Part shown: piece by piece, positions 19,844-59,498 of the stretch
How the letters are laid out: each line of letters starts with the position of its first letter
How positions within the stretch are numbered: the stretch's first letter is position 1
Origin: Modestobacter italicus
GTDB lineage: Bacteria; Actinomycetota; Actinomycetes; Mycobacteriales; Geodermatophilaceae
Direction of reading: 5' to 3'
Assembly (NCBI RefSeq): GCF_000306785.1
Contig: NC_017955.1
Coordinates: 4,402,001 to 4,466,000 of the forward strand
Length of the DNA stretch: 64,000 nucleotides
Made by a program: the position numbers and the translations under genes
The notes under the pieces: generated by a model
Seen by the model: only the letters and a program-made list of their open reading frames with translations
Databases searched by the model: none
Told to the model about the DNA's origin: nothing

Positions 19844-19897
19844 GGCCCCCTGCAGGGTCCCGCCGCGAGCGTGCGAGTGGTGGGGGGCAGGGGGTCC
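19844..19897 (-). repeat. Structured intergenic repeat, copy A (after recG)
   Basis: Nested hairpin shared with copies at 40702, 50065 and 59442. Outer arms on the plus strand are GGCCCCCTGC (19844-19853) and GCAGGGGGTCC (19887-19897), fully paired except for one bulged T. The inner arms CCCGCCGC and GTGGTGGG pair with wobbles around a loop containing GAGC and GCGA. The right arm ends two bases before the recG stop codon, so in the transcript it is the first element of the recG 3' region and lies just before rsmD. Confidence 0.85.
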
Positions 19898-19898
19898 T

Positions 19899-22094
19899 TC
19901 ATGCTTTCTCCAAGTAGTCGGCGCGCTCGTCCATCGCCAGCGCGGCGACCGCGGCGGCCAGCTCGGGGTGGTCGGCGAGGCCGCCGCCGTTCTCCACCAG
20001 GGCGGTCGCCTCGGCCCGCGCCTCGGCGATCAACGTCTCGTCGTCGAGCAGCGAGAGGAGCTTCACGTTCGAGCGGCGGCCGGACTGCGCGGCGCCGAGC
20101 ACGTCGCCCTCGCGCCGGGTCTCCAGGTCCAGCCGGGCCAGCTCGAACCCGTCGGTGGTGGCGGCGACCGCGGCCAGCCGCTGCCCGGTCGCCGACGAGC
20201 TGGACGCCTCGCTGACCAGCAGGCACAGCCCGGCGTGCTTGCCCCGGGCGACCCGGCCGCGCAGCTGGTGCAGCTGGCTGACGCCGAACCGGTCGGCGTC
20301 CATCACCACCATCACCGTGGCGTTGGGCACGTCGACACCCACCTCGACCACGGTGGTGGCGACCAGCACGTCGACCTCGCCGGCGGCGAAGGCCCGCATC
20401 CGGGCCTCCTTCTCCTCCGGGGGCATCCGGCCGTGCAGCACCTCGACCCGCAGCGCCGACAGCGGCCCCGAGCGCAGGCCTTCCGCGACGTCCAGCACGG
20501 CCAGCGGCGGGCGCCGGTCGCTGGTGCCGGCGTCGTCCGGTGGGGCGCCGTCGGCGTCGTCCGGCCCGTCGTCGTCCTTCGCCGACTCCTCCAGGTCACC
20601 GATCCGCGGGCAGACGACGTAGGCCTGCCGCCCGGCCGCGACCTCCTCCCGCACTCGGGCCCAGGCCCGTTCCAGCCAGGCCGGCTTGTCCCGCACCGGG
20701 ACGACGGAGCTGGACACGCCGCCCCGGCCGGCGGGCAGCTGGCGCAGCGTGGAGGTCTCGAGGTCCCCGTAGACGGTCATCGCCACGGTGCGCGGGATCG
20801 GCGTGGCCGTCATCACCAGCACGTGCGGCGGGCGGGTGCCCTTGGCGCGCAGCGCGTCGCGCTGCTCGACGCCGAAGCGGTGCTGCTCGTCGACGACGAC
20901 CAGACCGAGGTCGGCGAACTCGACGCCCTCCTGCAGCAGCGCGTGCGTGCCGACGACGATGCCGGCGCTGCCGTCGGCGACCGCGGCCCGCGCCTCCCGG
21001 CGGACGGCGGCCTTCTGCGACCCGGTGAGCAGCACCACCCGGGTGCCGGCCGGGTCGCCGTCCAGCTCCCCGGCCCGGGCCAGCGGGCCCAGGATCGCCG
21101 ACAGGCTGCGGGCGTGCTGGGCGGCGAGCACCTCGGTGGGCGCCAGCAGCGCCGCCTGCCCGCCGGCGTCGACCACCTGGGCCATGGCGCGCAGCGCGAC
21201 GACGGTCTTGCCCGAGCCGACCTCGCCCTGCAGCAGCCGGTTCATCGGCTGCACCCGGGCCAGCTCGGCGGCCAGCTCCTCGCCGACCTCCCGCTGCCCC
21301 TCGGTGAGGGAGAACGGCAGCGCGGCGTCGACGGCATCGAGCAGCCCGCCGCTGCGCCGCGGCCGCTCGATGCCGGGCTCCAGCGCGGCAGCGCGCCGCC
21401 GGGCGGCCAGCGTGCACTGCAGCACCAGCGCCTCGTCCCACTTCAGCCGCTCGTCGGCGAACTCGACCTGGGCCAGCGACTCGGGCCGGTGCTTGTAGAC
21501 CAGCGCCGTGGCCAGCGACGGCAGGCCGTGCCGGTCGCGCACCGCCGCGGGGATGGGGTCGTCGAGCAGGGCCTCCAGCGAGTGCCGGTCGTCCAGCAGC
21601 ATCTTCACCGACTTCTGGATCACCCAGCTGGAGACGTCCTTGCTGGCCGGGTAGAGCGGCACCAGGGCGCGGGCCCAGTCGTCGTCGTCCCCGGTGATGA
21701 TGTGGCAGTCGGGGTGGCTGAACTGCTTGTCGCCCCGCCAGAGGCCCACGGTGCCGGCGAACAGACCCCATTCCCCGACGTCCAGGTGGGCGTGCCGGTT
21801 GTTGAAGAAGACCAGCCGCATGCTGCCGGCGCCGTCGCCCACGGTGACCTCGGTGAGCGTCCCGCGGCGCTGCTGCATCCGGCGGGTGCTGACGCTCTTG
21901 ACCTGGGCCAGCACCGTCACCCGGTCGCCGACCTGCAGGTCGTCGAGCCGGGACATCTCACCGCGCCGGGCGTAGCGGCGCGGGTAGTGCCGGAGCAGGT
22001 CGCGCACGGTGCGCAGCTGCAGCTGGTCGGCCATGACCTTCGACGTCTTCGGGCCGAGCACCCGGGACAGGTCGGTGTCCATCGACATCGCCAC
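19899..22094 (-). CDS. recG: ATP-dependent DNA helicase RecG
   Basis: Superfamily 2 helicase that regresses stalled replication forks and branch-migrates junctions. The 731-residue protein has an N-terminal wedge/OB domain, Walker A GEVGSGKTVVAL near residue 290, the DEQH box VVVDEQHRFGVEQR near 400, TATPIPRT near 428 and a C-terminal helicase domain with VGVDVPNAT. GTG at 22094 is chosen; it lies two bases after the upstream TAG. An acidic insertion rich in Asp near residue 505-525 interrupts the second helicase domain. Confidence 0.96.
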   Translation of the reverse strand: MAMSMDTDLSRVLGPKTSKVMADQLQLRTVRDLLRHYPRRYARRGEMSRLDDLQVGDRVTVLAQVKSVSTRRMQQRRGTLTEVTVGDGAGSMRLVFFNNRHAHLDVGEWGLFAGTVGLWRGDKQFSHPDCHIITGDDDDWARALVPLYPASKDVSSWVIQKSVKMLLDDRHSLEALLDDPIPAAVRDRHGLPSLATALVYKHRPESLAQVEFADERLKWDEALVLQCTLAARRRAAALEPGIERPRRSGGLLDAVDAALPFSLTEGQREVGEELAAELARVQPMNRLLQGEVGSGKTVVALRAMAQVVDAGGQAALLAPTEVLAAQHARSLSAILGPLARAGELDGDPAGTRVVLLTGSQKAAVRREARAAVADGSAGIVVGTHALLQEGVEFADLGLVVVDEQHRFGVEQRDALRAKGTRPPHVLVMTATPIPRTVAMTVYGDLETSTLRQLPAGRGGVSSSVVPVRDKPAWLERAWARVREEVAAGRQAYVVCPRIGDLEESAKDDDGPDDADGAPPDDAGTSDRRPPLAVLDVAEGLRSGPLSALRVEVLHGRMPPEEKEARMRAFAAGEVDVLVATTVVEVGVDVPNATVMVVMDADRFGVSQLHQLRGRVARGKHAGLCLLVSEASSSSATGQRLAAVAATTDGFELARLDLETRREGDVLGAAQSGRRSNVKLLSLLDDETLIAEARAEATALVENGGGLADHPELAAAVAALAMDERADYLEKA

Positions 22095-22096
22095 GG

Positions 22097-23725
22097 CTAC
22101 TCCACCCCCACCAGCAGCGGCACCGCCCCGGCGCCGCCGGCGTACCGGACCACCTCGACCGTGGGGTGCACCGCCGCCAGGTGGGCGCCCACGGTGTCGC
22201 CGAGGGCGGCGTCGGCCCCCACGACCAGCGTCGCCATCTCCCCGCCGGCGGACAGCAGGCGGTCGAGCAGGTCGCGGGCCACCGTGGCGGCGTCGGCGCC
22301 GATCACGACGACGTCGCCCTCCGCGCTGCCCAGCACGTCACCGGGGCGGCAGCGCCCGGCCGAGGTGAGCGCCTCCTGGTCGGCGACCACCACCTCGGCC
22401 CAGCGGGTCGCCGCGGCGGCCTCGGCCAGCGCGACGACGTCGTCCCCTAAGCGGCGGGCCGGGTCGGCGACGGCGAGGGCGGCCAGGCCCTGCACGGGCG
22501 ACCGGGTGGGGACGACGACCACGTCGCGGCCCTCGGCGCGGGCACGCTCGGCCGCCCGGCCGGCCGGCCCGATGGCCCCGGCGGCGTTGGGCAGCACCAC
22601 GACCTGCTCGGCGCCGGTGCCGAGGACCGCGCGCAGCACGTCGTCCTCCGCGACGGCGTCGGCCGGCGCGGTGAGCACGGTGACGCCCTCCGCCGCGAAC
22701 AGCTCGGCCAGCCCCGCCGCGCAGGCCAGCGCGACGACCGCCCGGACGCCCGGGGCCGCGGCCGGCGGGCGCACCGGTGCCAGCGGGGTGACCGAGATGC
22801 GGTGCGGGCGGCCGGCCTCGATGCCGGCCTCGATCGCCGCGCCGACGTCGGAGACGTGCACGTGCACGTTCCACTCGCGGCCCGCCGGGGTGTCGACGCC
22901 GACCACGACCAGGCAGTCGCCGAGCTCGGCGAGCCGGGCCTGCAGCCGCGCGACGGCGTCCGGGTCGGAGTCGGCGAGCAGGAACTGCACCTCGCTGCCC
23001 GGTCCGGGCGCCGGCGGCCCGGGCACCGGGGCCGAGGGGCGCCGGGGGCGGGCGGGCCGGCCGCCCAGCGGGGGGCGGGCCGGCGCGACCCCGGTCACCG
23101 TGCCGACGAGCGCGTCCAGCACCAGGCACCAGCCCGCTCCCCCGGCGTCGACGACCCCGGCCTCCTTGAGCGCGGCCAGCTGACCGGTGGTGGCCTGCAG
23201 CGCGGTGAGCGCGCCGTCGGCCGCGGCCCGGACGACGTCGGCCAGCCCGGTCCGCCCCTCGACGACGGCGGCGGCCGCGGCCTCGGCCCCCGACCGGGCC
23301 ACGGTGAGGAAGGTGCCCTCCTCGGGGTCGGCGACGGCGCCGTACGCGCTCTGCGAGGCGCTGGTGAGCGCCGTCGCGAGGAGCTCGCCGTCGACCTCGG
23401 GGCGGTCGGCGAGGGCGTCGGCGAGACCGCGCAGCAGCTGGGCGAGGATCGCCCCGGAGTTGCCGCGGGCACCGAGCACGGCGCCGCGGGCCAGCACCGC
23501 CCACGGCGACTCGGGCCGGCGGCCGCCGTCGTCCCGGGCGGCCTGCAGGGCGGCGTCGAGGGCCGCGTGCCCGGCCTCGGCGGTGAGCAGCAGGTTCGTG
23601 CCGGTGTCGCCGTCGGGCACCGGGAAGACGTTGAGCTCGTCGAGCCGGCCGCGGGCCGCGCCGAGGACGTCGACGACGGCACGACTCCACCGGCCGACCG
23701 CGGCGTCGTCCAGCGCCCTCAGCAC
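22097..23725 (-). CDS. DAK-domain kinase, FakA-like
   Basis: A 542-residue protein of the FakA/YloV type: an N-terminal DhaL (dihydroxyacetone kinase ATP-binding) domain with NVFPVPDGDTGTN at about 32-44 and ARGNSGAI near 105, then a middle linker with a Pro/Gly-rich insertion near 210-235, then a C-terminal Dak1-like domain. In firmicutes FakA phosphorylates fatty acids bound by FakB; no FakB (DegV) gene is in this window, so the substrate here is open. The GTG at 23725 gives a start just before the family N-terminus. It is two bases upstream of recG, an arrangement common in actinobacteria. Confidence 0.87.
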   Translation of the reverse strand: MLRALDDAAVGRWSRAVVDVLGAARGRLDELNVFPVPDGDTGTNLLLTAEAGHAALDAALQAARDDGGRRPESPWAVLARGAVLGARGNSGAILAQLLRGLADALADRPEVDGELLATALTSASQSAYGAVADPEEGTFLTVARSGAEAAAAAVVEGRTGLADVVRAAADGALTALQATTGQLAALKEAGVVDAGGAGWCLVLDALVGTVTGVAPARPPLGGRPARPRRPSAPVPGPPAPGPGSEVQFLLADSDPDAVARLQARLAELGDCLVVVGVDTPAGREWNVHVHVSDVGAAIEAGIEAGRPHRISVTPLAPVRPPAAAPGVRAVVALACAAGLAELFAAEGVTVLTAPADAVAEDDVLRAVLGTGAEQVVVLPNAAGAIGPAGRAAERARAEGRDVVVVPTRSPVQGLAALAVADPARRLGDDVVALAEAAAATRWAEVVVADQEALTSAGRCRPGDVLGSAEGDVVVIGADAATVARDLLDRLLSAGGEMATLVVGADAALGDTVGAHLAAVHPTVEVVRYAGGAGAVPLLVGVE

Positions 23726-23925
23726 GCCCGGCAGGGTACCGGGGGCCGCCGACAGGACCGGTCCACGCGTGGTCGGCCGGGCTCCCGGGCCGGGGTGGGC
23801 CGACACCGACCCCGGCCACCGGTTACAGTGGTGCCCAGCGTGTGCGTGGCTGGTGTCTGCCCTCGGGCCTCCAGTGGCACCGCGACCTGACTTCAGTTGG
23901 ACCAATTCTCTGGGAGTGATCGACC

Positions 23926-24117
23926 GTGGCTGCCGTGTGCGACGTGTGTGGCAAGGGCCCCGGTTTCGGCATGTCGGTGTCCCACTCGCACCGCCGTACG
24001 CCGCGCCGTTGGAACCCGAACATCCAGTCCGTCCGGGCTGCCGTCTCCGGTGGCGGGCGCAAGCGCGTCAACGCCTGCACCTCCTGCATCCGTGCAGGCA
24101 AGGTCGCCCGGGTCTAA
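23926..24117 (+). CDS. rpmB: 50S ribosomal protein L28
   Basis: Ribosomal protein L28, 63 residues, beginning with GTG and reading MAAVCDVCGKGPGFGMSVSH, typical of the family. It is the zinc-binding form with CDVC and CTSC pairs. It is divergent from the DAK/recG pair with a 200-bp gap holding a possible promoter (CCGACA, 18 bases, TACAGT near 23800-23830). A strong bidirectional terminator follows 13 bases after the stop. Confidence 0.97.
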   Translation: MAAVCDVCGKGPGFGMSVSHSHRRTPRRWNPNIQSVRAAVSGGGRKRVNACTSCIRAGKVARV

Positions 24118-24130
24118 GCGCCCAGCACGT

Positions 24131-24175
24131 CACGGAAGACCCCGGGAGGCCATCGGCCTCCCGGGGTCTTCCGTG
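24131..24175. terminator. Bidirectional terminator between rpmB and the kinase-like gene
   Basis: A perfect 21-base-pair stem (24131-24151 with 24155-24175) closed by the loop ATC. It lies between two convergent genes and just clears both stop codons, so it can end transcripts from both sides. It lacks a strong T run, as is usual in very GC-rich actinobacteria. Confidence 0.85.
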
Positions 24176-24178
24176 TGC

Positions 24179-24805
24179 TCAGCCGCCGATGCCGCGGGCG
24201 TGGGCGGCGGTGACCACCAGGTCGACCACCGCGTCGTGCGGCAGGGCGGTGCTGTCCACCACCAGGTGGTAGTGCCGGGACTCGGCCGGGTCGCAGCGGT
24301 AGAAGTGCCGTACGTAGGCGACCCGGGCCCGGTCGGCCGCCTCCTGGTCCCGGCGCACCTCGTCCTCCGGCCGGCCCGAGTGCGCGACCGCGGCGGCCAG
24401 CCGCCGGTCCCGCGGCCCGTCCAGCCGCACGTGCAGCACGTCGGGCCGGTCCCGCAGCACCATCGCCGCCGCCCGGCCCAGCACCACCCCGCCGGGGCCC
24501 TCGACGATCTCGGTGAGCACCCGCTCGGTCTGCACCCGGTAGGCCCGCTCGTCGGGCAGGGCGGACGTCGGCAGCACGCCGCCCACCGGGTCGGGCATCG
24601 TGCCCAGCGAGCTCACCAGCCGCCACAGGCCGCGGGTGATGGTCTCGTCGTTGGCCTCGGCCTCTTCCACCGGGACCCCGAGCCGCCCGGCGACCTGCGC
24701 CGGGATCACCCGGTCGTGGAACGGCAGCCGCAGGCGCTCGGCGACGGCGGGGGCGATCTCGGCGCCGCCGGCCCCGAACGACGCCGACACGGTCACGACG
24801 CCCAT
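24179..24805 (-). CDS. Cytidylate kinase-like family protein
   Basis: A 208-residue protein of the cytidylate-kinase-like family (Cytidylate_kin2 type). It begins MGVVTVSASFGAGGAEIAPAVA, where the glycine-rich segment replaces a classical P-loop, and includes the GGVVLGRAAAMVL and RLDGPRDRRL segments with HFYRCDP further on. True Cmk enzymes have a GxxxxGKS/T loop, which is absent, so CMP kinase activity should not be assumed. It overlaps the end of the acetyltransferase gene by 13 bp and is the last gene of the thiL group. Confidence 0.8.
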   Translation of the reverse strand: MGVVTVSASFGAGGAEIAPAVAERLRLPFHDRVIPAQVAGRLGVPVEEAEANDETITRGLWRLVSSLGTMPDPVGGVLPTSALPDERAYRVQTERVLTEIVEGPGGVVLGRAAAMVLRDRPDVLHVRLDGPRDRRLAAAVAHSGRPEDEVRRDQEAADRARVAYVRHFYRCDPAESRHYHLVVDSTALPHDAVVDLVVTAAHARGIGG

Positions 24806-25311
24806 GCGTCCTCCTCCTCAGCGGTCGCCGGCGCGGTGAGCTGCTTGCCCAGGAACACCGCGTCCGGCGAGTCCGCGTAGACCCCGTACCCGGCGACCGG
24901 CGAGTACCCCGCACGGTCGTAGAGCGCCAGCGCCTCGGGCTGCCGGTCGCCGGAGTTCAGCACCAGCTGCCGGTGCCCGGCCGCGGCGGCGGAGCGCTCC
25001 AGCTCGGCGAGGACCAGGGCCGCGATGCCGCGCCGACGGAACGCCGGCTCCACGTACATCCGCTTGACCTCCGCCACGCCGTCGCCGGAGGAGCGCCAGC
25101 CGCCGCAGCCGGCCGGCACCCCGTCGACCTCGGCGACCAGGAACAGCCCCAGCGGCGGGGAGAACTCCGCCGGGTCGACGACGGCGGCGTCCCGGCCGCC
25201 GTAGCGGACCACGTACTCCTGCTGCACCCGCTCGACGAGGTGCTGCGCGACCGGGTCGGCGTACCCCACGGCGCGGAGCCGGACCCGCCCCGGCTCAGCC
25301 GAAGTGGACAT
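24793..25311 (-). CDS. GNAT family N-acetyltransferase
   Basis: A 172-residue acetyltransferase. The acetyl-CoA loop is RRRGIAALVLAELE at about residues 102-115, preceded by the beta strand VAEVKRMYVEP and followed by LNSGDRQPEALALYDRAGY, the usual C-terminal half of the fold. The ATG at 25311 lies inside the 3' end of thiL (17-bp overlap) and its own end overlaps the next gene by 13 bp, so the three are coupled. The substrate is unknown. Confidence 0.88.
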   Translation of the reverse strand: MSTSAEPGRVRLRAVGYADPVAQHLVERVQQEYVVRYGGRDAAVVDPAEFSPPLGLFLVAEVDGVPAGCGGWRSSGDGVAEVKRMYVEPAFRRRGIAALVLAELERSAAAAGHRQLVLNSGDRQPEALALYDRAGYSPVAGYGVYADSPDAVFLGKQLTAPATAEEEDAWAS

Positions 25312-26329: not shown

Positions 26330-26406
26330 GCGGCGTCCCGCGCGGCTCGGTAACGTTGCTGGTCGGTCCGCTGCTCAGCAGGCCTGCGCCCGAGGAAGGT
26401 CAACCC

Positions 26407-26640
26407 GTGGTCCACGCCTACATCCTGATCCAGACCGAAGTCGGCAAGGCAGCCGCGGTCGCCGCGAGCATCAGCGAGATCGCCGGCGTGACGAAGGCCG
26501 AGGACGTCACCGGTCCCTACGACGTGATCGTGCGGGCCGAGGCGAACACCGTCGACGAGCTCGGCCGGCTCGTCGTGGCCCGGGTGCAGTCGGTCGACGG
26601 CATCACCCGCACCCTGACCTGCCCCGTCGTCAACCTCTGA
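26407..26640 (+). CDS. Stand-alone Lrp/AsnC ligand-binding (RAM) domain protein
   Basis: A 77-residue protein that is only the effector-binding half of an Lrp/AsnC regulator: VVHAYILIQTEVGKAAAV followed by the TGPYDVIVRAEANTVDEL core. No helix-turn-helix is present and none can be found upstream in frame. GTG at 26407 has GAGGAAGG seven bases upstream. Such single-domain proteins are widespread in actinobacteria beside thiL and may bind amino acids and modulate full-length Lrp proteins by mixed oligomers; that role is inferred. Confidence 0.85.
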   Translation: MVHAYILIQTEVGKAAAVAASISEIAGVTKAEDVTGPYDVIVRAEANTVDELGRLVVARVQSVDGITRTLTCPVVNL

Positions 26641-26689
26641 GCCGCTGAGCACGCCTGACCCCGCCGACCGGCTGCTGCGCCGGGCGGCG

Positions 26690-29003: not shown

Positions 29004-29014
29004 CGCCGCCGACC

Positions 29015-40701: not shown

Positions 40702-40757
40702 GGCCACCTCGCAGGGGCCCGCCGCGAGCTCGCGAGTGGCGGGGGGCGAGGTGGTCC
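40702..40757 (-). repeat. Structured intergenic repeat, copy B (after the small membrane-protein gene)
   Basis: Outer arms GGCCACCTCGC (40702-40712) and GCGAGGTGGTCC (40746-40757) pair fully with one bulged T. The inner arms CCCGCCGC and GTGGCGGG are better paired than in copy A. The right arm ends five bases before the last base of the stop codon of the minus-strand gene at 40762. It lies between two convergent genes and could serve as a terminator for both. Confidence 0.85.
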
Positions 40758-40761
40758 TTCG

Positions 40762-41112
40762 TCAGTGCTGGGTGAGGTCCGAGCCGTCGCTCGTGCCCTC
40801 GTCCTTCTCCTTCTCCAGCGCGACCGGGTCGACGACGACCGGGCGGAGCACCAGCCACACCGCGAACACCACGGCCACGATGATCATCACGATCCCGGAC
40901 CAGAGGTTCGCGTTCCAGTCGCCGGTCTTGGCGCGGTCCTCGGCGTTGTCGGCGAACAGCCCCATGATCGTCAGGACGATCCCGTACAGGCCGATCAGTC
41001 CGGCGATCACCGTGCGGACGTCGTAGGCCCCCGCCGTGTGCTTGCGGGCCTCCGCCGGCACGCGGCCTGCGTCGTCCGAGTCGTTCGCTGCGGCGTTCGA
41101 TGCCGTGCTCAT
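40762..41112 (-). CDS. Small two-helix membrane protein next to the sodium symporter
   Basis: A 116-residue protein with a polar N-terminus (about 1-30), two predicted membrane helices at about 34-53 and 70-90, and an acidic cytoplasmic tail. It is 31 bp downstream of the symporter gene on the same strand, so the two are probably co-expressed. Small membrane proteins are often auxiliary to solute:sodium symporters (as with the PanF/YhdT or MctP partner types), but this one is not a family I can name. Confidence 0.75.
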
Positions 41113-43064: not shown

Positions 43065-43137
43065 TAGCCCCGAAGGGATTCGAACCCTCGCTACCGCCGT
43101 GAGAGGGCGGCGTCCTGGGCCGCTAGACGACGGGGCC
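43065..43137 (-). tRNA. tRNA-Glu (anticodon CTC), copy 1
   Basis: Full cloverleaf of 73 bases without encoded CCA. The acceptor stem is GGCCCCG against CGGGGCT with a G-T first pair and discriminator A; the anticodon stem CCGCC/GGCGG encloses CTCTCAC, so the anticodon is CTC and reads GAG, the main Glu codon in GC-rich genes. The T arm has GGTTCGAATCC. It is identical to copy 2, 178 bp away. Confidence 0.97.
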
Positions 43138-43199
43138 GCAACTGCACAGGGAATCCTGCCATGCACCGCCGAGCCGCGCACGCAGGGGTCCGGGGACGA

Positions 43200-43235
43200 C
43201 GAGAGCCCCCGACCCGGGTGGGTCGGGGGCTCTCG
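43200..43235 (-). terminator. Hairpin after the second tRNA-Glu
   Basis: Same 16-base-pair stem and GGGT loop as at 43022-43057, here seven bases past tRNA-Glu copy 2 (43200-43215 with 43220-43235). It belongs to a duplicated tRNA-plus-terminator cassette. Confidence 0.8.
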
Positions 43236-43242
43236 GACCGCG

Positions 43243-43315
43243 TAGCCCCGAAGGGATTCGAACCCTCGCTACCGCCGTGAGAGGGCGGCGTCCTGGGCCG
43301 CTAGACGACGGGGCC
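43243..43315 (-). tRNA. tRNA-Glu (anticodon CTC), copy 2
   Basis: The same 73-base sequence as copy 1, with anticodon CTC. Together with tRNA-Gln it lies just downstream of the gltX/CPBP genes, so three tRNAs are grouped with the synthetase that charges two of them. Confidence 0.97.
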
Positions 43316-43382
43316 CCAGGCAGTGCTGGTGGTGCTCGGTGGTGCTGTGGTGCGGTCGTGCTGAGGAGGTGGATCTTCCTCG

Positions 43383-43454
43383 CTGGGGTACCAGGACTCG
43401 AACCTAGACTAACGGAACCAGAAACCGTCGGGCTGCCAATTACCCCATACCCCA
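43383..43454 (-). tRNA. tRNA-Gln (anticodon CTG)
   Basis: A 72-base cloverleaf. Acceptor TGGGGTA pairs with TACCCCA, discriminator G. The anticodon loop TTCTGGT gives CTG, which reads CAG. A T-T mismatch closes the anticodon stem, as in many tRNA-Gln. Most actinobacteria lack GlnRS and charge this tRNA with Glu by GltX before amidation, which fits the gltX neighbour. Confidence 0.96.
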
Positions 43455-49354: not shown

Positions 49355-49391
49355 GGCGTCTCCCGGGAGGTCGGATGAGGGCCCAGACACG

Positions 49392-49418: not shown

Positions 49419-49445
49419 GCGCGCAGTCGGGGAGGTGACTGCGCG

Positions 49446-49478: not shown

Positions 49479-49485
49479 CGCGCCC

Positions 49486-49514
49486 AGTACAGCACGGAAC
49501 CGCCGCCGGTGGAA
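49486..49514 (-). promoter_or_regulatory. Candidate promoter of the cimA leader
   Basis: Minus strand: TTCCAC (49509-49514) and TGTACT (49486-49491) separated by exactly 17 bases, seven bases before the leader ATG. Position and spacing fit a housekeeping sigma promoter that yields an almost leaderless leader-peptide message. Each hexamer matches the consensus at only four of six positions. Confidence 0.35.
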
Positions 49515-49602
49515 CGCCTCGTCCGCTGCGTGGGACGCGGTAATCCGGCTGACGGCCGGTGGCGGGCCGGGGCACGATGCGGGCCGACCCCGAGGAGGAC
49601 CG

Positions 49603-50007
49603 GTGACCAGCACCTGGCGGGCCGTGCACCGCACGGACGACGGCGAGCACGTGGGATACGTCGCGCCTGCGTCCGTGGACGGCGGGCTCGTGGTCCCGAT
49701 GACGCTGGCCGGCACCCCTGCGGCGGGGCCGCTGCCGGTCGCGGACGCCACCGCGCTGCTCACCGGCACCGGTCTGGCCGTGCTGGCCAGCCGCTGGTGG
49801 TGCCGGCTGCCGGACCCGCTGCCCGCCGGCGTCACCGACGCCCACCGGCCGTCCGCGGACTGGCCGTGGCGGCCCACCGTGCTGGTCGAGGTCTCGCCGC
49901 GGCAGGTGCAGCTGCGCCCCGAGTGGGCCGCCCCGGAAGAGCAGACCGCCCGGGCCGTGCTCCCCTTCCCCGCCGGCGACCTGCTGCGCACCACCGCCCC
50001 CGGCTGA
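49603..50007 (+). CDS. Conserved hypothetical protein between cimA and leuB
   Basis: A 134-residue protein with no membrane segment and no motif I recognise. It starts with GTG after GAGGAGG (an excellent ribosome site), and reads VTSTWRAVHRTDDGEHVGYV, then a Pro/Ala-rich body with WWCRLPDPLP and WPWRPTVLVEVSP in the second half. A longer frame upstream would start inside the cimA leader region and is unlikely. It is divergent from cimA. Its stop codon forms part of a 20-base direct repeat that leads into repeat copy C. Confidence 0.75.
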   Translation: MTSTWRAVHRTDDGEHVGYVAPASVDGGLVVPMTLAGTPAAGPLPVADATALLTGTGLAVLASRWWCRLPDPLPAGVTDAHRPSADWPWRPTVLVEVSPRQVQLRPEWAAPEEQTARAVLPFPAGDLLRTTAPG

Positions 50008-50070
50008 CGTGCTGGAACGGCCCCGCTGCAGGGGCCCGCGCCGAGCGTGGTGACGTGCTGGAACGGCCCC
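50005..50070. repeat. 20-base direct repeat and truncated copy of the structured element
   Basis: TGACGTGCTGGAACGGCCCC occurs at 50005-50024 and again exactly at 50051-50070. The first occurrence continues into GCTGCAGGGGCCCGC, which looks like the left part of a structured repeat whose right part is lost. The second runs into the full copy C. The stop codon of the plus-strand gene is the TGA of the first copy. Confidence 0.7.
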
Positions 50071-50120
50071 CTTCCAGGGTCCCGCCACGAGCTTGCGAGT
50101 GGTGGGGAGGAAGGGGGTCC
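50065..50120 (-). repeat. Structured intergenic repeat, copy C (after leuB)
   Basis: Outer arms GGCCCCCTTCC (50065-50075) and GGAAGGGGGTCC (50109-50120) with one bulged T; inner arms CCCGCCAC and GTGGTGGG. The right arm ends five bases before the last base of the leuB stop codon (50125). It lies between convergent genes. Confidence 0.85.
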
Positions 50121-50124
50121 TTCC

Positions 50125-51144
50125 TCAGCCGGAGAGGGCGGCCAGCCGGTCGCCGATCTCCGAGGTGCGGATGGTGGCCTTCGGGTCGCGGGTGGACAGG
50201 TCGAAGGCGACGGCGGCGTTGACCTTCTTGGCCAGCTCCGGGCGGCCGAGGTGGTCCAGCAGCAGGCCGACCGACAGCACGGTGGCCGTCGGGTCGGCGA
50301 TGCCCTGCCCGGCGATGTCCGGAGCGGAGCCGTGCACCGGCTCGAACATGCTCGGGTTGGTGCCGGAGACGTCGAGGTTGCCGCTGGCGGCCATCCCGAT
50401 CCCACCGGTCACGGCGGCGGCCACGTCGGTGATGATGTCGCCGAACAGGTTGTCGGTGACGATCACGTCGTACCGCGACGGGTCGGTGATGAAGAACATC
50501 GTGGCCGCGTCGACGTGCTGGTAGGCGACGGTGACCTCGGGGAACTCCGCGGAGACCTCCTCCACCGTGCGCGACCACAGCGACCCGGCGTGGGTGAGCA
50601 CGTTGGTCTTGTGGATCAGCGTGAGGTGCTTGCGCGGGCGGGCGACGGCCCGCTCGAAGGCGTAGCGGACCACGCGCTCCACCCCGAAGGCGGTGTTGAG
50701 GCTGACCTCGGTGGCGATCTCGTGCGGGGTGTCCCGGCGGAGCACCCCGCCGTTGCCGACGTAGGGGCCCTCGGTGCCCTCGCGGACGCAGAGCATGTCG
50801 ATCTCGCCGGGCCGGGCGAGCGGGCTGCGCACGCCGTCGTAGAGCTTGGCCGGGCGCAGGTTGACGTGGTGGTCGAGCTCGAAGCGGAGCTTGAGCAGCA
50901 GGCCGCGCTCGAGGATGCCGCTGGGCACCCCGGGGTCGCCGACGGCGCCGAGCAGGATGGCGTCGTGCTGGCGCAGCTCGTCGAGCACCGAGTCCGGCAG
51001 CAGCTCGCCGGTGCGGTGCCACCGCGCCGCCCCCAGGTCGTACGGGGTGGCCTCGACGTCCGGGGCCACGGCCCGCAGGACCTTGAGGCCCTCCGCCACC
51101 ACCTCGGGACCGATGCCGTCTCCAGGGACCACTGCCAGGCGCAT
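50125..51144 (-). CDS. leuB: 3-isopropylmalate dehydrogenase
   Basis: Oxidative decarboxylation step of leucine synthesis. The 339-residue protein starts [20 protein letters not shown] and has [20 protein letters not shown]-type [37 protein letters not shown] and [15 protein letters not shown], the last being the nucleotide-binding loop. No strong ribosome site precedes the ATG. It stands alone between two terminator-like structures (51194-51232 upstream and repeat C downstream), so it has its own promoter in the short gap. Confidence 0.96.
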
Positions 51145-51193
51145 GAGGCCAGAGGTTAGTGGTCGACCGCTCCCCTCCCCGCACCCGTACACG

Positions 51194-51232
51194 CCGGACG
51201 CCCCCCGCGAGGTGCTCGCGAGGGGCGTCCGG
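51194..51232 (-). terminator. Terminator downstream of the S8 peptidase gene
   Basis: An 11-pair stem (51194-51204 with 51222-51232), one C-A mismatch, then six more pairs and a GTG loop. It is 19 bases past the peptidase stop codon and separates it from leuB. Confidence 0.8.
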
Positions 51233-51250
51233 GTCGTGCGGTGCTGCCGG

Positions 51251-54200
51251 TCAGCCAGCCGGCGGGGCCTCCACCGGGGACACCGTGGCGTCCGCGGCGA
51301 CCGCCGGGACGGGCACCGACTGGCTGCGCCCGGTGGCCGTGTCGTTGTGCGGCAGGACCACCAGCGCCCCCTTCTCCCCACCGACGGCGACGTCGGCGGC
51401 GTAGGACGCGGGGTCCTGGGTGACGGTGATCGTCGTCCCGTCGGCGGCCGGCAGGAGCAGGGCCGGGTTGCCGTCGGGGTCGCTGAACGACAGCCCCGGG
51501 GCCAGCGGGTCGAAGCTCATCGGCGTGCTGAGCTCCGCCCCGGTGGCGCCGGTGGTGGTGCCGAGGTCGTCGACGGTGTCGTAGGCGCTGACCGCCTGGA
51601 CACCGAAGGAGATCCGCCCCTGCACCAGCGGCATCGCCGACAGCGGCACCCCCATCACCTGGACGTCGCTGTCGTAGGCGTTGGTGTCCACGAGCCCGTC
51701 GACCAGGTCGAGCGCGCCGACGTAGGGGTCACCGGCGGGCAGCAGCTGGAACTCCCGGTCGGTGACGACGACGAGCGCGACGTCGCTGTCGGCGACCCGC
51801 GTGGTCGTCACCTGGTAGTCCCAGACGCCGTCACCGGTCGCGTCGAGGTACACGCCGTAGTTCACCGCCGTCTCCGGCGAGGTGTACCTCCCGTGCGCGG
51901 AGACCGCGAAGTACAGCCCCGGGTCGTCGGCGAACGCCCGGACGTCGGAGGCGACGCCGACCGCCGCCAGGTCGACGGAGCGCTCGAGCTCGGACTTGTA
52001 GCAGTCCGGGCCGACCGTGGTCGTGCAGCGGGGCATCTCCGGGCTGGTGCCCAGCTGCTCGACGACGTCCACCAGCGAGGTGTAGCTGCTGGGCTGGTAC
52101 GCCTCGCCGTTGGCCACCCCCTGACCGCTCAGGGTGATCGTCGAGCCGTCCGCGGCCGCCGACGCGGTGAGCGTCGAGGAGGGCTTGGCGTTGCTGTGCA
52201 CCGGGACGCGCAGCGCGCTGCCCTTCCCGTTGACCGGGGTGAGCACGACGCGGCCGCTGGCCTCGCCGAGGAACTGGCGACCGTCGTCGGTGACCACCGT
52301 GGGGTCGGCCACCTTGCGCAGCTCGTCCTGCACGGCGGTCATCGTGACGGTCACCGTGCGGGTCTGGCCCGGCGGCACGGTCACCCGCTGCGCGGACAGC
52401 GAGTACCGGACACCCGGCTGCTCGGCGGCGGCCTGGTAGGCCACCCGGTAGACCGCGGCGCTGGTGCCCTTGTTGGCCACCGTGATGGTCCGGGTCGCCT
52501 GCACCTGCTCGGCCGCGACCTCGACCACCCCGAAGGAGGCCGAGACCACACCGGAGCCGGCCTCGGCGTAGGCCAGCACGGTGTTCTGCACCGCGGCCGC
52601 GGCGTCGATCCGACCGGAGCCGGTGCGGTTGGGCCCGTAGACCTCACCGGTCCGCCCCTCGCCGGTGTACACGTCGTGCACCGCGGTGTTCATCAGGTCG
52701 GCCTTGACCTCCTCGGTCGTCCACTCGGGGTGCGCCGCCCGGATGAGCGCGGTGACCCCGGCGGTGGTCGGCGTGGCCATCGACGTGCCGCTCTCGCTCA
52801 CGCCGGCCGAGCCGGTGCCCACGCCCGCGGAGAAGAGCGTGACGCCGGGAGCCGTGACGTCGGGCTTGACGCCGTCCGCCTGGCGCACCCCGCGCGAGGA
52901 GAAGGACGCGAGCAGGTCGACCTGCTCGGGGTCGTCGGCGACGGCGGCGTCCTTGAGGCTCGGCCCGAAGGTGACCGTGACGGTCTGCCCGGCACCGACC
53001 GCCGTCTCCAGCGCCTGGCCGTCGGTGGCGGTGGTCAGGATCCCCGGGATCTGCGGGACGCCGGTGATGCCGGTCTCCAGCAGGTCGTCGTCGGAGACGA
53101 TCACGAAGGCGATGGCCCCGGCGGCCACCGCGTTGGTGCCCTTGGCGACCGAGCCGCAGGCGAAGCCGGCGGCCTGGATGAGCAGCACCTTGCCGGTGGC
53201 GTAGCCGGCCGGCAGCGCCGCGCAGGCGTCCTCGTTGCCCGTCGGCGCGGCGATCAGGTCACCGGTGACGTCGGGCTTGACCGCTCCGGCGTCGTCGGTG
53301 TCGCTGTAGGCGACCGACCGGAGGCCGGGCCGCACGCCGTCGAGCACGCCGGCCGGGCTGAGCACCCGCCAGCCGTCGAAGACGCCGTAGCCGTCGTTGC
53401 TCGCCGCGACGCCGATGCCCCGCGGCGCGTTGCCCGGGGAGCCGCCGATGTCGTAGCTGTCCCCGGCGTTGCCGGCCGCGACGACGGCCAGCATGCCCAG
53501 CTCCATGGCCTGGTCGATGGCGAGCGCGTCGGCGTCGTCGGCCAGCCCGTAGTCCGAGCCGAGCGACAGGTTGACCACGTCGAGGTGGTCGGAGGGGTCG
53601 CCGTCCTGGTCAGGGTCCAGCGCCCAGTCGATCGCCTGGATGGTCACGTCGGTCGAGCCCTCGCAGCCGAAGACCTTCAGGGCGTAGAGGTCGGCCTCGG
53701 GGGCCATGCCGGGGCCGATCCGCAGGGCCTTCGGGTCCAGGCCGGGGCCGTACCCGCCGCGGTAGGTCGTCCCGTCGGCGTTCACGCCGTACCCCGCGGA
53801 GGTGCCCGCCACGTGGGTGCCGTGGCCGTTGCAGTCCAGCGGGTTGTCGTCCGGCTTAGCGACCGGGTCGTAGGCCGGATCGGCCGGGTCGGCGTTGTAG
53901 GCGTCACCGACGAAGTCGTGACCGCCGACGACCTTGGCGTTCGGGAAGACGCCGGCCGGCGCCGGCTGCGCCTCGGCCGCCTGCAGCGCCGCGTAGTCGG
54001 CGACGCTGCCGCTGCCTCCGAAGTCGGTGTGCGTGTAGTCGATGCCGGTGTCGATGACGCCGATGGAGACGCCCTTCCCGGTGTTGCCCAGGGCCTCCCA
54101 CGCCTGCACGGCCTGCACGACGCCGGCCGCGCCGGCGTTGCTGACCGTCTTCGGCGTGATCGGGTGCACGGCGGTGACGCCGGGCAGCGCGCTCAGCGCC

Positions 54201-54696
54201 TCGTAGTCGGCCGCGTCGGCGCGCACCGCGACCCCGGAGAGCACGCTGGCGGTCGAGTAGAGCACCGCGGCGTCCGGGACGGCGGTCGGCAGCTCGTCGA
54301 CGACCTGCGCGGCCGCCGCCTCCGAGTCCCCGCGCGCGGTCGAGGCAGCGGAGGCCGCGGCGGCCGCTCCGGACCGCGTCAGCACGTCGGAGTAGACCTG
54401 CGAGGCCGCGGGCGCGGCCAGCTCCATGAAGAACGACGTCGGGCCGCTCTCCGGCAGCCCGGCGGGGCGCACCCCGTCGCGCCGCGCGGCGAGCTGCGCC
54501 TGGACCTCGGCGAGCTGCTGCGCGCTGAGGTCGACCTGCCCTGCCCGGCCCCGACGTGGTCGGCCACGCCGGCCGGTGCGGCCAGCGCCGTGCCGGCACC
54601 GCTGGTGGCCAGGGCCGCCGCGACGGCGACGACCCCCGTCCGGACGGCGACGCGTCGGCGTCCCGCCCGGGTCGTGCTCGATGTCCTGGGTCGCAC
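51251..54696 (-). CDS. Secreted S8 (subtilisin-like) serine peptidase with probable frameshift
   Basis: A large exported subtilase of about 1150 residues. Catalytic residues: Asp in [17 protein letters not shown], His in [14 protein letters not shown], and Ser in [16 protein letters not shown]; a PA domain ([15 protein letters not shown]) lies between His and Ser, and beta-rich C-terminal domains follow. An I9-type propeptide precedes the catalytic domain. The signal peptide ([18 protein letters not shown]...ALA-AP, from GTG 54696) is in a different frame from the body: they meet at 54535-54546 (minus GGGCAGGGCAGG), where one missing base breaks the frame. It may be an inactivated gene or a sequence error; all catalytic motifs are intact. 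Confidence 0.82.
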
Positions 54697-54992
54697 GTTC
54701 TCCCCTGTCGACTGGTTCTCGGACCCGTCCGCCGCCACCTGCTGTGTCCGGCCGGTGACCAACGGCGAGTGCTCTCACGGTGGTCGTTGCCCCGGGCAAG
54801 GACCAATAGGCCGTTCGGAGCAGCGCCGCCGGCTGCCCGGCGCACTCGGCCGCGCTGTGCCCAGGCTGTGCCGTCGAGGGAACCGCGCACGCCGACGACG
54901 CGCGGGCGCTGCGGCGAACGGAGCAGCCGCTCGCGGCAGGTGCCGCGTTGCTCCAGGCGTCAAGCACCACGCAGGCCTCTCCCCCGACGCGA
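54697..54992 (-). other. Non-coding stretch upstream of the S8 peptidase
   Basis: About 300 bases between the peptidase start and the serA terminator. It should hold the peptidase promoter. I see no convincing -10/-35 pair, repeat or small frame with a ribosome site; the frames that cross it have no family features. Confidence 0.5.
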
Positions 54993-55027
54993 CGAGGCCG
55001 CGTCGTCCGGTGGACGACGCGGCCTCG
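54993..55027 (-). terminator. serA terminator
   Basis: A perfect 16-pair stem (54993-55008 with 55012-55027) and loop GGT, 32 bases after the serA stop. It separates serA from the peptidase gene. Confidence 0.85.
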
Positions 55028-55058
55028 GGCGCGGTGCCGGGAGGGCCCGGCGGGAGGG

Positions 55059-56672
55059 TCAGGTGGGGTTGAGGTCGGCCGACTGCGCCCGCCGGGAGCC
55101 GATCCGCCCGGCGATGTCGGCGAGCAGCTCGCTGCTGACCGGGCTGTCGACGGTGATCGCCATGAGCGCCTCGCCGCCCTGCGTCGTCCGGCTGACCTGG
55201 GCGCCGGCGATGTTGACCCCGGCCTCGCCCAGGGCCGCGCCGACGGCGCCGACCACCCCGGGCCGGTCGGTGTAGACGAAGAACAGCAGGTACCCGTCGG
55301 CGGTCAGGTCGACGTCGAACCCGGCGACCTCGGTCAGCTTCGGCACCTGGTTCTTGCCGTACAGGGTCCCCGAGACGGTGACCTCGGTGCCGTCGGCCAT
55401 CGCGCCGCGCACGGTGATCAGGTTGCGGTAGTCCGGGCTCTCCGGGTCGCTGGTCAGCCCCACCTCGAGGCCGCGCTGGGCGGCCAGCAGCGGCGCGTTG
55501 ACGTAGGTGACCGGCTCCTCGACGACGTCGGCGAAGACGCCCCGCAGCACAGCCAGCTGGACGACCGACACGTCGAACTCGGCGATCTTGCCGAGCACCT
55601 GCACGGTCACCGACTGGGCCAGGCCGCCGGCCAGCGCGGTGAACACCCGGCCGAGCTTCTCGGCCAGCGGCAGCCCCGGCCGGACGTCCTCGGCGACGAC
55701 CCCGCCGGCCTGCACGTTGACCGCGTCAGGGACGAACTCGCCCTGCAGCGCCAGCCGGACGCTGCGGGCCACCGCGGTGCCGGCCTTGTCCTGGGCCTCC
55801 GTCGTCGAGGCGCCCAGGTGCGGGGTGACGACCACGTTGGGGAGCCCGAACAGCGGGCTGTCGGTGCACGGCTCCTTGGCGTAGACGTCGATGCCGGCCG
55901 CGCCCACCTGGCCGGACTCCAGCGCCTCGGCCAGCGCCGCCTCGTCGACCAGCCCGCCGCGGGCGGCGTTGACGATGATCACGCCGCGCTTCGTGGCGGC
56001 CAGCTGCTCGGCGCCGATGAGCCCGAGGGTCTCCGGCGTCTTGGGCAGGTGGACGGTGATGAAGTCCGACTCGCGGAGCAGATCGTCCAGCGACACCAGC
56101 CGGACGCCGAGCTGGGCGGCGCGGCCGGGCTGGATGTAGGGGTCGTAGGCGAGCAGGGTGACGCCGAAGGCCGCCAGCCGCTGGGCGACCAGGACACCGA
56201 TCCGCCCCAGCCCCACGACCCCGACGGTCTTCTCGGTGACCTCCACGCCGGTGAACCTCGACCGGGCCCACTTCCCCTCGCGCAGCGAGGCGTCGGCGGC
56301 CGGGATGTGCCGGGCGGCGGCCAGCAGCAGCGCGACGGCGTGCTCGGCGGCGCTGACGATGTTCGAGGTCGGGGCGTTGACCACGAGCACGCCGCGCTCG
56401 GTGGCGGCCGGGACGTCGACGTTGTCCAGCCCGATGCCGGCCCGGGCGACCACCTTGAGCGCAGGCGCCGCCGCGAGGGCCTCGGCGTCGATCTGGGTGG
56501 CCGACCGGATCAGCACGGCCGAGGCCTCGGCGAGCGCCGGGAGGAGGGCTGCGCGGTCGGCGCCGTCGACGTGGCGGATCTCGACGTCGCCGCCCAGCAC
56601 CTCCAGGACGCTGGGGGCGAGCTCTTCGGCGATCAGGACGACGGGCGTGGTCCCCGGCACAGTGGCGGTCAC
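55059..56672 (-). CDS. serA: D-3-phosphoglycerate dehydrogenase
   Basis: First step of serine synthesis. The 537-residue protein is the long actinobacterial type: substrate domain, NAD-binding domain (VGVVGLGRIG near 149, VTPHLGAST near 290 with the catalytic His), an intervening ASB domain, and a C-terminal ACT domain (YTDRPGVVGAVGAALGEAG), where serine inhibits. Start GTG 56672 reads VTATVPGTTPVVLIAEEL; an in-frame GTG four codons on is possible. It is divergent from the 302-residue membrane protein with a 160-bp gap. Confidence 0.96.
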   Translation of the reverse strand: MTATVPGTTPVVLIAEELAPSVLEVLGGDVEIRHVDGADRAALLPALAEASAVLIRSATQIDAEALAAAPALKVVARAGIGLDNVDVPAATERGVLVVNAPTSNIVSAAEHAVALLLAAARHIPAADASLREGKWARSRFTGVEVTEKTVGVVGLGRIGVLVAQRLAAFGVTLLAYDPYIQPGRAAQLGVRLVSLDDLLRESDFITVHLPKTPETLGLIGAEQLAATKRGVIIVNAARGGLVDEAALAEALESGQVGAAGIDVYAKEPCTDSPLFGLPNVVVTPHLGASTTEAQDKAGTAVARSVRLALQGEFVPDAVNVQAGGVVAEDVRPGLPLAEKLGRVFTALAGGLAQSVTVQVLGKIAEFDVSVVQLAVLRGVFADVVEEPVTYVNAPLLAAQRGLEVGLTSDPESPDYRNLITVRGAMADGTEVTVSGTLYGKNQVPKLTEVAGFDVDLTADGYLLFFVYTDRPGVVGAVGAALGEAGVNIAGAQVSRTTQGGEALMAITVDSPVSSELLADIAGRIGSRRAQSADLNPT

Positions 56673-56832
56673 GGGACCACAGCGTAGGGACGTCGCCCCC
56701 GCCGTCCAGCGTCGGTGCCCACCGGTCCCACTGGGTGGACGCGCCTGCGACCGGGCGGTTGTTGCCCGCTCCCCCGGGACACGACCATCCTGGGCCGGAG
56801 CGCCGGTGCCACCGGCCCGTGCGGAGGAGACC

Positions 56833-57741
56833 ATGAGCAACGACCGGGACGACGAGCAGGGCCGCCAGGAGACGACGCCGCTCGGCCAGCCGCTGGACCC
56901 CACCGCACCCCGGGACGACTCCTCCAGCGGGACCGGCTCGACCGCCTACGGGTCCTCACCCGGCCAGCCGTACGCGCCGACCGAGCAGTACGGGCAGTAC
57001 GGGCAGCCGCCGCAGTACGGGCAGCCGCCCGCCTACGGCCAGCCGCCCCAGTACGGCCAGTCCCCCGCCTACGGCCAGTCCCCCACGTACGACCAGTCGC
57101 CCACGTACGACCAGTCGCCCACGTACGGCCAGCCGCCGTCCTACGGGCAGACCGAGCAGTACGGCGGCGGCTACGGGCAGCCCGCGCCGTACGGGCAGTA
57201 CCAGCCCGCGCCCTACGGGCAGTACGGCGCCGCGCAGCCGCCGGCCGGCTACGGCTACGGGCCGCCACCGGCTCCGGCCCGCCCGGGCGGGGTCATCACC
57301 GCCGCCGTCCTGGGCATGGTGCTCGGCGCGTTCGGTGTGCTGGTCAGCCTGCTCTTCGTGATCCTCGGCGCCGTGGCGGCCGGTGGCGCCAGCGGCCTGG
57401 ACGACGAGATCCCCGGGTTCGGCGCGGTCACCGGGGCCGTCGCCGGCCTGCTGCTGGCCGTCGGGCTGCTGGCGGTGGCCTGGACGGCGCTGATGATCTG
57501 GGGCTCGATCTGGGCGCTGACCGGCCGCAGCCGGGTGCTGCTGATCGTCGCCGGGTCCATCGCCACGGCGGTGACCGGGGTGATGCTCATCGGCAGCCTC
57601 AGCGACTCCGACGGCGGCGGCATCGTCTTCGCGCTGCTGCTGTTCGCGGCGTCGGTGGCCACCGTGGTGCTGCCGTCGCTCCGCCCGGCCGCGCAGTTCT
57701 ACGCCGCGCACCGGCAGCGCCGGGCCCTGCTCCCCCTCTGA
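56833..57741 (+). CDS. Membrane protein with Tyr-Gly-Gln-rich repeat tail (DUF4190-like)
   Basis: A 302-residue protein. After an acidic start (MSNDRDDEQGRQETTPLGQP) residues about 45-145 are tandem short repeats of the type QYGQPP, YGQSP and YDQSP, very low in charge and rich in Tyr. Four membrane helices follow (about 155-182, 198-222, 230-250, 258-280). The start has GGAGGAGA upstream. Proteins with this build are frequent in actinobacteria; the tail may mediate phase-separation-like or cell-wall contacts, but the role is unknown. A bidirectional terminator separates it from ilvC. Confidence 0.83.
   Translation: MSNDRDDEQGRQETTPLGQPLDPTAPRDDSSSGTGSTAYGSSPGQPYAPTEQYGQYGQPPQYGQPPAYGQPPQYGQSPAYGQSPTYDQSPTYDQSPTYGQPPSYGQTEQYGGGYGQPAPYGQYQPAPYGQYGAAQPPAGYGYGPPPAPARPGGVITAAVLGMVLGAFGVLVSLLFVILGAVAAGGASGLDDEIPGFGAVTGAVAGLLLAVGLLAVAWTALMIWGSIWALTGRSRVLLIVAGSIATAVTGVMLIGSLSDSDGGGIVFALLLFAASVATVVLPSLRPAAQFYAAHRQRRALLPL
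56980..57235 (+). repeat. In-frame tandem repeat region coding the YGQ-rich tail
   Basis: Repeated units of about 15-18 bases such as GTACGGGCAGCCGCC and CCACGTACGACCAGTCG, several in exact tandem (for example the two YDQSPT units near 57085-57125). Unit number is likely to vary between strains by slippage. Confidence 0.75.
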
Positions 57742-57743
57742 AC

Positions 57744-57781
57744 CAGCACGGGCCCGCGACCGTGGTCGCGGGCCCGTGCTG
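57744..57781. terminator. Bidirectional terminator between the membrane-protein gene and ilvC
   Basis: A perfect stem of 17 pairs (57744-57760 with 57765-57781) and a four-base loop CGTG, lying in the 55-bp gap between two convergent genes. Confidence 0.85.
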
Positions 57782-57796
57782 CGTGCTCGGTGCGGC

Positions 57797-58864
<1,068 letters not shown>

Positions 58865-58880
58865 GCGGATTGTGTGAGGT

Positions 58881-59411
58881 TCAGGCGGAGCGCTGGTCGA
58901 CCGGGCGCAAGGTACCGGCGCCGCTCATCGACCGCGGTCCGCGGCCCAGGGCGACGGTGCCGGACTGCGCCATCTCCTTGATGCCCAGCGGGGCGAGGAC
59001 GGCGACCAGCGCCTGCAGCTTGTCCGGTGTGCCGGTCGCCTCGAGGGTGACGGTGTCGACGTTGACGTCGATCACCCGGGCCCGGAAGAGCTCGGCGGTC
59101 TGCAGCACCTGGTTCCGGTCGGCCAGCGGTGCGCGGACCTTGACCAGCAGCAGCTCGCGCTGGACGGCGGCCCCGCCGTCCAGCTCGACGATCTTGATGA
59201 CCTCGATCAGCTTGTTCAGCTGCTTGGTGATCTGCTCCAGCGGCGCGGACTCCGCGTCGGCGACGATCGTCATCCGGGAGAGGTCGGGGTTCTCCGTCGG
59301 ACCGACGGCCAGGGACTCGATGTTGAAGCCCCGCCGGCTGAACAGCGCCGAGACGCGGGCCAGCACACCGGACTTGTTCTCGACCAGGACCGAGAGCGTG
59401 TGCCTCGTCAT
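58881..59411 (-). CDS. ilvN: Acetolactate synthase regulatory subunit
   Basis: Small subunit that activates IlvB and confers valine feedback. The 176-residue protein opens MTRHTLSVLVENKSGVLARV, the ACT domain, with GFNIESLAVGPTE and a second half with DVNVDTVTLEATG. ATG 59411 has GGAGG upstream. It follows ilvB after a 91-bp gap filled by repeat copy D, a frame inside which also happens to start at the ilvB stop and end at the ilvN start. Confidence 0.97.
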   Translation of the reverse strand: MTRHTLSVLVENKSGVLARVSALFSRRGFNIESLAVGPTENPDLSRMTIVADAESAPLEQITKQLNKLIEVIKIVELDGGAAVQRELLLVKVRAPLADRNQVLQTAELFRARVIDVNVDTVTLEATGTPDKLQALVAVLAPLGIKEMAQSGTVALGRGPRSMSGAGTLRPVDQRSA

Positions 59412-59441
59412 GAGCGGGGACCTCCTTCCTGAGAGCAGTCC

Positions 59442-59498
59442 GGCCCCGTCTCAGGGGCCCGCCGCGAGCGGAGCGAGTGGTGGGGGGAGACGGGGTCC
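59442..59498 (-). repeat. Structured intergenic repeat, copy D (after ilvB)
   Basis: Outer arms GGCCCCGTCTC (59442-59452) and GAGACGGGGTCC (59487-59498) with one bulged T. The right arm ends five bases before the end of the ilvB stop codon. It sits inside the ilvBN operon, so it could lower expression of ilvN relative to ilvB or stabilise the ilvB message. Confidence 0.85.

Follow-up and report, generated by a model that had tools for sequence, protein, structure and literature searches.

Hairpins behind stop codons: a dispersed, REP-like repeat family of the Geodermatophilaceae

Why should one stretch of DNA carry four copies of the same hairpin, each within a few nucleotides of the stop codon of a gene? 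The question is raised by a segment of 64,000 nucleotides (nt) of the Modestobacter italicus genome (NC_017955.1, positions 4,402,001 to 4,466,000; hereafter the window, in whose own numbering coordinates are given), in which a first-pass annotation made from the letters alone had described four structured 3'-end repeats. As set out below, they belong to a genome-wide family of hairpins with maintained base pairing and a strong preference for the site directly behind a stop codon. Copy 1 (19844..19904, + strand) lies between recG (- strand, stop codon 1 nt from the GGTCC that ends the element on its right) and rsmD (-, starting 6 nt from its left end); copy 2 (40702..40764, +) separates a convergent pair, a + strand gene whose matches to IclR-type regulators stay below the cutoff, and a - strand gene for a 116-residue protein (stop 4 nt from GGTCC); copy 3 (50065..50127, +) ends 4 nt from the stop of leuB (-); and copy 4 (59442..59505, +) stands between ilvB (-, stop 4 nt from GGTCC) and ilvN (-, starting 30 nt from its left end). 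The adjoining minus-strand products are RecG, LeuB, IlvB and the 116-residue protein, which has no NCBIfam match. The gaps of 1, 4, 4 and 4 nt agree with the close spacing first reported, as does the location of two copies inside likely operons, given the co-directional rsmD and ilvN beyond them.

A search pattern with fixed spacing matched one copy only, because the loop varies in length. In the genome (5.58 Mb) a core pattern gave 27 + 16 matches and its reversal 14 + 16; 22 of the 30 pattern loci examined proved, with the window's four, to be family hairpins, and the other 8 were chance matches. A covariance model built from 22 of these 26 copies (all except L006, L011, L026 and L027) recovered in the window, at E ≤ 0.01, exactly the four hairpins at the positions annotated, all on the + strand. 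In the whole genome it found, among the best 150 candidates scored, at least 147 matches at E ≤ 1 and at least 146 at E < 1e-4, which bears out the proposal of a genome-wide family. We also drew a sample of 400 kb, evenly spread outside the window and not selected by the core pattern; window and sample together (464 kb) held 21 matches at E < 1e-3, of which the sample contributed 17, one further match (E 0.44) being excluded. If the 400-kb sample is typical, these numbers imply about 240 copies per genome.

All 23 Modestobacter genomes searched, that of M. italicus included, have matches at E ≤ 0.01 (at least 17-144 each, among the best ~137 candidates scored), and 0 of 16 genomes from other families searched alongside them matched at this threshold. 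Across the order, with the best 17 candidates scored per genome, 54 of 298 genomes matched, 51 of them Geodermatophilaceae from eight genera and three from two other families; the 224 unlisted genomes may include members of the family without a match. Within the order, the element occurs almost only in Geodermatophilaceae, a family of soil bacteria. The three genomes from the two other families (G078, G088 and G173) have one or two strong copies each and may owe them either to horizontal transfer or to contamination. A scan of named genomes listed at least 80 loci, 79 of them titled with Geodermatophilaceae names (Modestobacter, Geodermatophilus, Blastococcus, Klenkia, Trujillonella and a Geodermatophilaceae bacterium). 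The remaining one, on contig SPQJ01000046.1, is labelled 'UNVERIFIED_ORG: Bacillus sp. AZ43', probably in error for a contig from the Geodermatophilaceae.

The + strand consensus, GGCCCC-NNNN-C-AGGGg-CCCGCCRC-GA-G-CNNG-C-GA-GTGGTGGG-GG-G-NNNN-GGGGTCCTTC, spans ~57 nt from GGCC to GTCC and comprises two stems and an internal loop; in the first set of copies free variation is confined to the loop and to four outer base pairs. That the outer arms of the four window copies differ yet remain complementary was confirmed by reading the copies, and the larger sets extend the observation. Across the 22 copies of the model, 97.7% of pair cells are standard and two-sided changes occur in 7 of 20 pairs (35 double-changed cells in these 7 pairs). 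The observed value was reached by 0 of 500 shuffles on four of five measures and by 2 of 500 on the fifth, figures that, like the binomial probability given below, overstate independence since the sequences are related; sliding the register lowers the paired fraction to 45-65%. The inner stem covaries in the 17 spread-sample copies, with C-G in 10 and G-C in 6 at one pair and five pair types at another, so that pairing is kept, with real covariation, in both sets. Chance or composition as the origin of the hairpins is rejected by the shuffles and by the control on intergenic positions described below.

The single bulged T that the first-pass annotation had placed in each right arm did not survive this analysis: on the + strand it can pair as G-U, a wobble that ViennaRNA picks in most copies, and it is the outermost of three such positions. 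The two strands differ accordingly in folding energy, with means of -39.0 kcal/mol (+ strand) and -31.9 kcal/mol (gene strand) for the 26 pattern-found copies and of -37.6 and -29.7 kcal/mol for the 17 spread-sample copies, among which the + strand is lower in 17 of 17. Because the search patterns had fixed a T at one (own genome) and two (named genomes) of the inner wobble positions, and the G-U counts were in part built in, we rest the claim about strands on the spread sample. There, 35 wobble cells are G-U and none A-C, some bias remaining because the rows were gathered by a model that accepts G-U. The wobble positions are G-U in 15 of 17, 11 of 16 and, at the third, 5 of 16 copies. Outside these three positions the spread sample has 4 G-U and 0 A-C cells, and the other sets have 34 against 10 (named genomes) and 1 against 0 (another set), in rows likewise gathered and aligned by the G-U-accepting model. 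The bias favours the + strand, whose sequence is antisense to the neighbouring gene, as the folded form, be it DNA or RNA; it speaks for a constraint that lies, at least in part, outside the mRNA. Such a bias can separate selection on mRNA from selection on the opposite strand.

To read the gene context we used a gene finder based on codon usage, for which 20 long frames of the window served as training set. No more than 15 nt separate the right end (GGTCC) from a convergent stop codon in 30 of 34 own-genome copies (the window's four plus those from the 30 best-scoring loci, that is, 37 model matches less two window duplicates, L040 and L052, and one weak opposite-strand match, L054), and in 84 of 107 copies from named genomes (114 matches less the six lowest-scoring and one truncated by the end of its locus). 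The corresponding counts for the spread sample are 16 of 21 with the window and 12 of 17 without it; such a stop is present at 2.8% of 86,247 intergenic positions used as control (binomial p 2.5e-21, ignoring relatedness). The modal distance of 4 nt accounts for 23 of the 30 own and 47 of the 84 named cases, the usual layout being TGA-N-GAAGGACCCC or TGA-N-GAAGGACC. Counted from the genes, 17 of 177 gene ends with at least 50 nt of room have AGGACC within their first 22 nt, against 0.95 in shuffles. The gene to the left is convergent in 13 and co-directional in 17 of the 30 own cases, and convergent in 23 and co-directional in 59 of the 84 named ones (2 unknown); since the left-hand gene may run either way, it is to the stop codon of the right-hand gene that the element is tied. 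In the tandem layouts, the next gene follows within 40 nt of the element in 7 of 17 (own) and 29 of 59 (named) cases.

According to the gene finder, 4 of 34, 23 of 107 and 5 of 21 copies have no right-hand stop within 15 nt, two of the last five lying too close to the end of their stretch for gene calling; among the 27 such copies of the first two sets, 7 have the stop codon of the left-hand gene within 2 nt. The 3'-end feature of fixed orientation that had been proposed therefore holds as a strong preference for 3' ends with one main orientation, and gives way for a minority of copies that are not at a right-hand stop. The copies we find are neither few, nor placed at random with respect to genes, nor devoid of paired changes. 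We note in passing that one copy (L048) stands behind an FtsQ-like gene's stop codon and only 15 nt from the gene that follows in the same direction, and that a core-less copy comprising the outer stem only (L229:3899-3930) also lies behind a stop codon.

Orthologous sites show which species have a copy and which do not. At the ilvB-ilvN junction the element is present in 8 and absent in 10 of 18 species. Leaving aside arms and loop, the eight copies are identical in 42 of 45 columns of the element, as opposed to an average identity of 60% in the adjoining leader (the coding ends are 91-92% identical), and the arms change in concert, from GTCT/AGAC in the window to CGTT/AACG in another species, with a few single mismatches. 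The ten empty junctions read TGATG (5), TAGGGATG (3), TAGGACAATG (1) and TGACGATG (1), and comparison of filled and empty junctions in the 18 genomes discloses no clear target-site duplication of the kind looked for in a relic of a MITE or insertion sequence. This variety, together with a GGAC remnant in one junction, suggests several losses of an ancestral copy; a Geodermatophilus ruber locus (L112), whose right flank resembles the ilvB end, agrees with an ancestral copy. Behind leuB, the element or a variant of it occupies 7 of 21 full-length ends, all seven being model matches, and the rest hold unrelated sequence or hairpins; here turnover is seen among species with 98-99% identical LeuB. 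Behind ilvC, identified by position, the element is present in 4 of 18 species (model scores 62.4, 61.9, 49.6 and a weak 28.8), where it is flanked by the stop codon and, on the other side, by a separate GC-rich hairpin. By eye, the separate hairpin is also present in 10 of the other 14 species; as the two coexist, the position of the element behind the stop does not depend on replacing that hairpin. Few orthologs of the 116-residue protein and of recG were present in the comparison regions fetched. Judged from leuB, ilvB and ilvC, the family has the behaviour of a dispersed repeat whose copies turn over from species to species, which the first-pass annotation had not considered.

Two further observations concern the leuB region. 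A variant at L189 (genome G007) directly abuts the leuB stop codon and, it appears, a convergent stop as well, and both its sides are gene-facing ends. In several genomes (L192, L195, L199) the sequence downstream of leuB holds a short frame, a hairpin, a T run and then the next gene, an arrangement whose form invites the guess of a transcription attenuator; these T-run hairpins indicate that true U tracts exist in Modestobacter.

A subset of copies has a left extension, GTGACGTGCTGGAAC, which in copy 3 occupies 50050..50064 (+). It is preceded by a 46-nt tandem half-unit (50004..50049, +) whose TGA is the predicted stop codon of a + strand frame, 49603-50007. Exact head-to-tail junctions of left halves number 37 in 14 of 23 Modestobacter genomes, against 0 with the reversed pattern. 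Up to five of these occur in a row, in steps of 46 nt, with the junction at the hairpin tip, and half-units are also found at L102, L143 and L110.

What kind of element is this? High copy number, one conserved hairpin, placement at stop codons, turnover, kept pairing and a wobble bias towards one strand are what comparison of the sequences establishes. We favour, at about even confidence, the reading that they mark a lineage-specific family of dispersed palindromes in the Geodermatophilaceae, similar to repetitive extragenic palindromes (REPs), that would spread through its folded + strand and act at the end of the upstream transcript. Spread or renewal could proceed through single-stranded DNA or through conversion between copies, presumably by an enzyme other than the known REP transposase. 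Copies would survive behind stop codons, where the hairpin may act on the transcript end of the upstream gene: a ribosome reaching the stop codon would meet the hairpin at once, as described for stop-proximal REPs of Escherichia coli, and what is tuned might be termination, the decay of the mRNA or, within an operon, read-on into the following gene.

Several points weigh against this interpretation. No mobility event and no enzyme were found, and the Y1 transposase domain (PF01797) is present in 0 of 23 Modestobacter genomes, in a search that covered this genus alone within the family and was positive in 5 of 14 control genomes; mobilization as a REP by a REP-associated tyrosine transposase (RAYT) was rejected on this ground. 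The varied empty ilvB-ilvN junctions suggest losses, and no clean gain is demonstrated. Three genomes of the family yielded few matches among 17 candidates scored (one, weak, in G203, and 5 each in G084 and G207), and in these the repeat family may be small or divergent. Finally, since the gene strand folds less well in every sampled copy, a role in the mRNA must use the weaker fold.

The alternative that fares best is a purely selfish or neutral repeat, purged elsewhere and left behind stop codons, in which conversion keeps the core and swaps the arms and no host function is served; we regard it as possible, and hold it tentatively. It accords well with the turnover between species with nearly identical LeuB, the ten empty ilvB-ilvN junctions, the tandem half-units in 14 of 23 genomes and the host genes, in which no functional theme emerged from the 20 of 26 extracted proteins that were given to Pfam (one had no Pfam match). 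Simple purging, however, leaves the narrow TGA-N-GAAGGACC spacing unexplained, and the ilvB-ilvN copy has kept its columns far better than its leader, although conversion could do likewise.

The narrow spacing could instead be set by the stop codon itself, if the element, in one orientation, entered or became fixed a single nucleotide past a terminating TGA through a process coupled to translation termination or to a single-stranded template there, the antisense strand being active in its folded form. We consider this improbable. The bare word TGA is not favoured as a target, since only 3 of the 27 copies away from a right-hand stop have TCA at the modal position, with the caveat that the gene finder may have missed some genes. 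At the 4-nt spacing the stop codon is TAG in 1 of 70 cases, against 36 of 399 gene ends (p 0.01), and this shortage leaves some room for a preference for TGA.

That the elements are intrinsic transcription terminators of the gene whose stop precedes them is likewise doubtful. They share with such terminators a GC-rich hairpin directly behind a stop codon, and in a crude test other gene ends of the M. italicus genome have GC-rich hairpins without a rise in T behind them (the label for elements caught 10 ends only, so that some elements stand among the 122 averaged 'strong non-element' ends). The element differs in having conserved internal sequence and, on the gene strand, mixed bases in place of a U tract after GGGGCC (by eye). 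Copies lie inside likely operons (ilvB-ilvN, recG-rsmD) or close before a next gene, as in the tandem counts above; a second hairpin stands behind the element at ilvC in four species, and other species have unrelated sequence or hairpins at leuB. The first-pass view that a plain terminator fits poorly is upheld on these grounds.

Least probable is a + strand RNA element that ends antisense or convergent transcripts before the 3' end of the neighbouring gene: the G-U excess, the better + strand fold and a pyrimidine tract, UCCUUC, behind the + strand hairpin in most copies would suit it, but the tract holds few U, the tandem layouts (17 of 30, 59 of 84) have a left gene that is not read on the + strand, and single-stranded DNA would produce the same wobble bias. 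A known RNA family was rejected, as Rfam 15 at its gathering score matched in the window three tRNAs only and none of the hairpins. The tRNA genes are consecutive (43065-43454, - strand).

No account of this Geodermatophilaceae repeat was found in the literature searched, which does not prove it unpublished, and in the main text of a comparative REP study (PMC3733652) the word actinobacteria is absent. The reason why extragenic palindromes gather behind stop codons can be studied cleanly in this family, given its many species, filled and empty ilvB-ilvN junctions and compensatory arms. By the account of that study, the element resembles the GTAG-tagged, RAYT-associated REPs of enterobacteria and Pseudomonas: these too are high-copy extragenic palindromes near 3' ends, in tandem and convergent layouts, with variants in stem and loop (PMC3733652). 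In the two species analysed there, less than 20 bp separates most convergent REPs from either 3' end, and unidirectional REPs keep near the 3' end of the upstream gene; the same placement is described for other REP-rich genomes (PMC3733652). REP copy number, by a statement in PMC2817692, can exceed 100 in one genome, and our hairpin, extragenic and near 3' ends, has at least 146 matches in its own genome and 17 in 400 kb. It differs in that its consensus has no GTAG or CGTC foot at either end (by eye), in being longer (REPs measure 20-40 bp) with two stems and an internal loop, in the absence of a Y1/RAYT gene from the Modestobacter genomes and in the single orientation that it mostly takes towards the adjoining stop codon; because neither a GTAG foot, nor REP size, nor a Y1 transposase was found, we do not file it as a REP. 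CGTC-tagged REPs are palindromes near 3' ends for which no dedicated transposase is known (PMC3733652); in our element CGTC appears only when the left extension is read as its reverse complement, and then in part of the copies and ~9 nt away from the stem. Stop-proximal E. coli REPs likewise place a hairpin within 15 nt of a stop codon; those less than 16 nt away can stall ribosomes and lower translation, as relayed in PMC12306157. In our element the spacing is sharply modal at 4 nt, and stalling by it would be by analogy with these REPs. The hairpins described here add to an actinobacterial family an untagged, REP-like repeat, without RAYT in the one genus tested.

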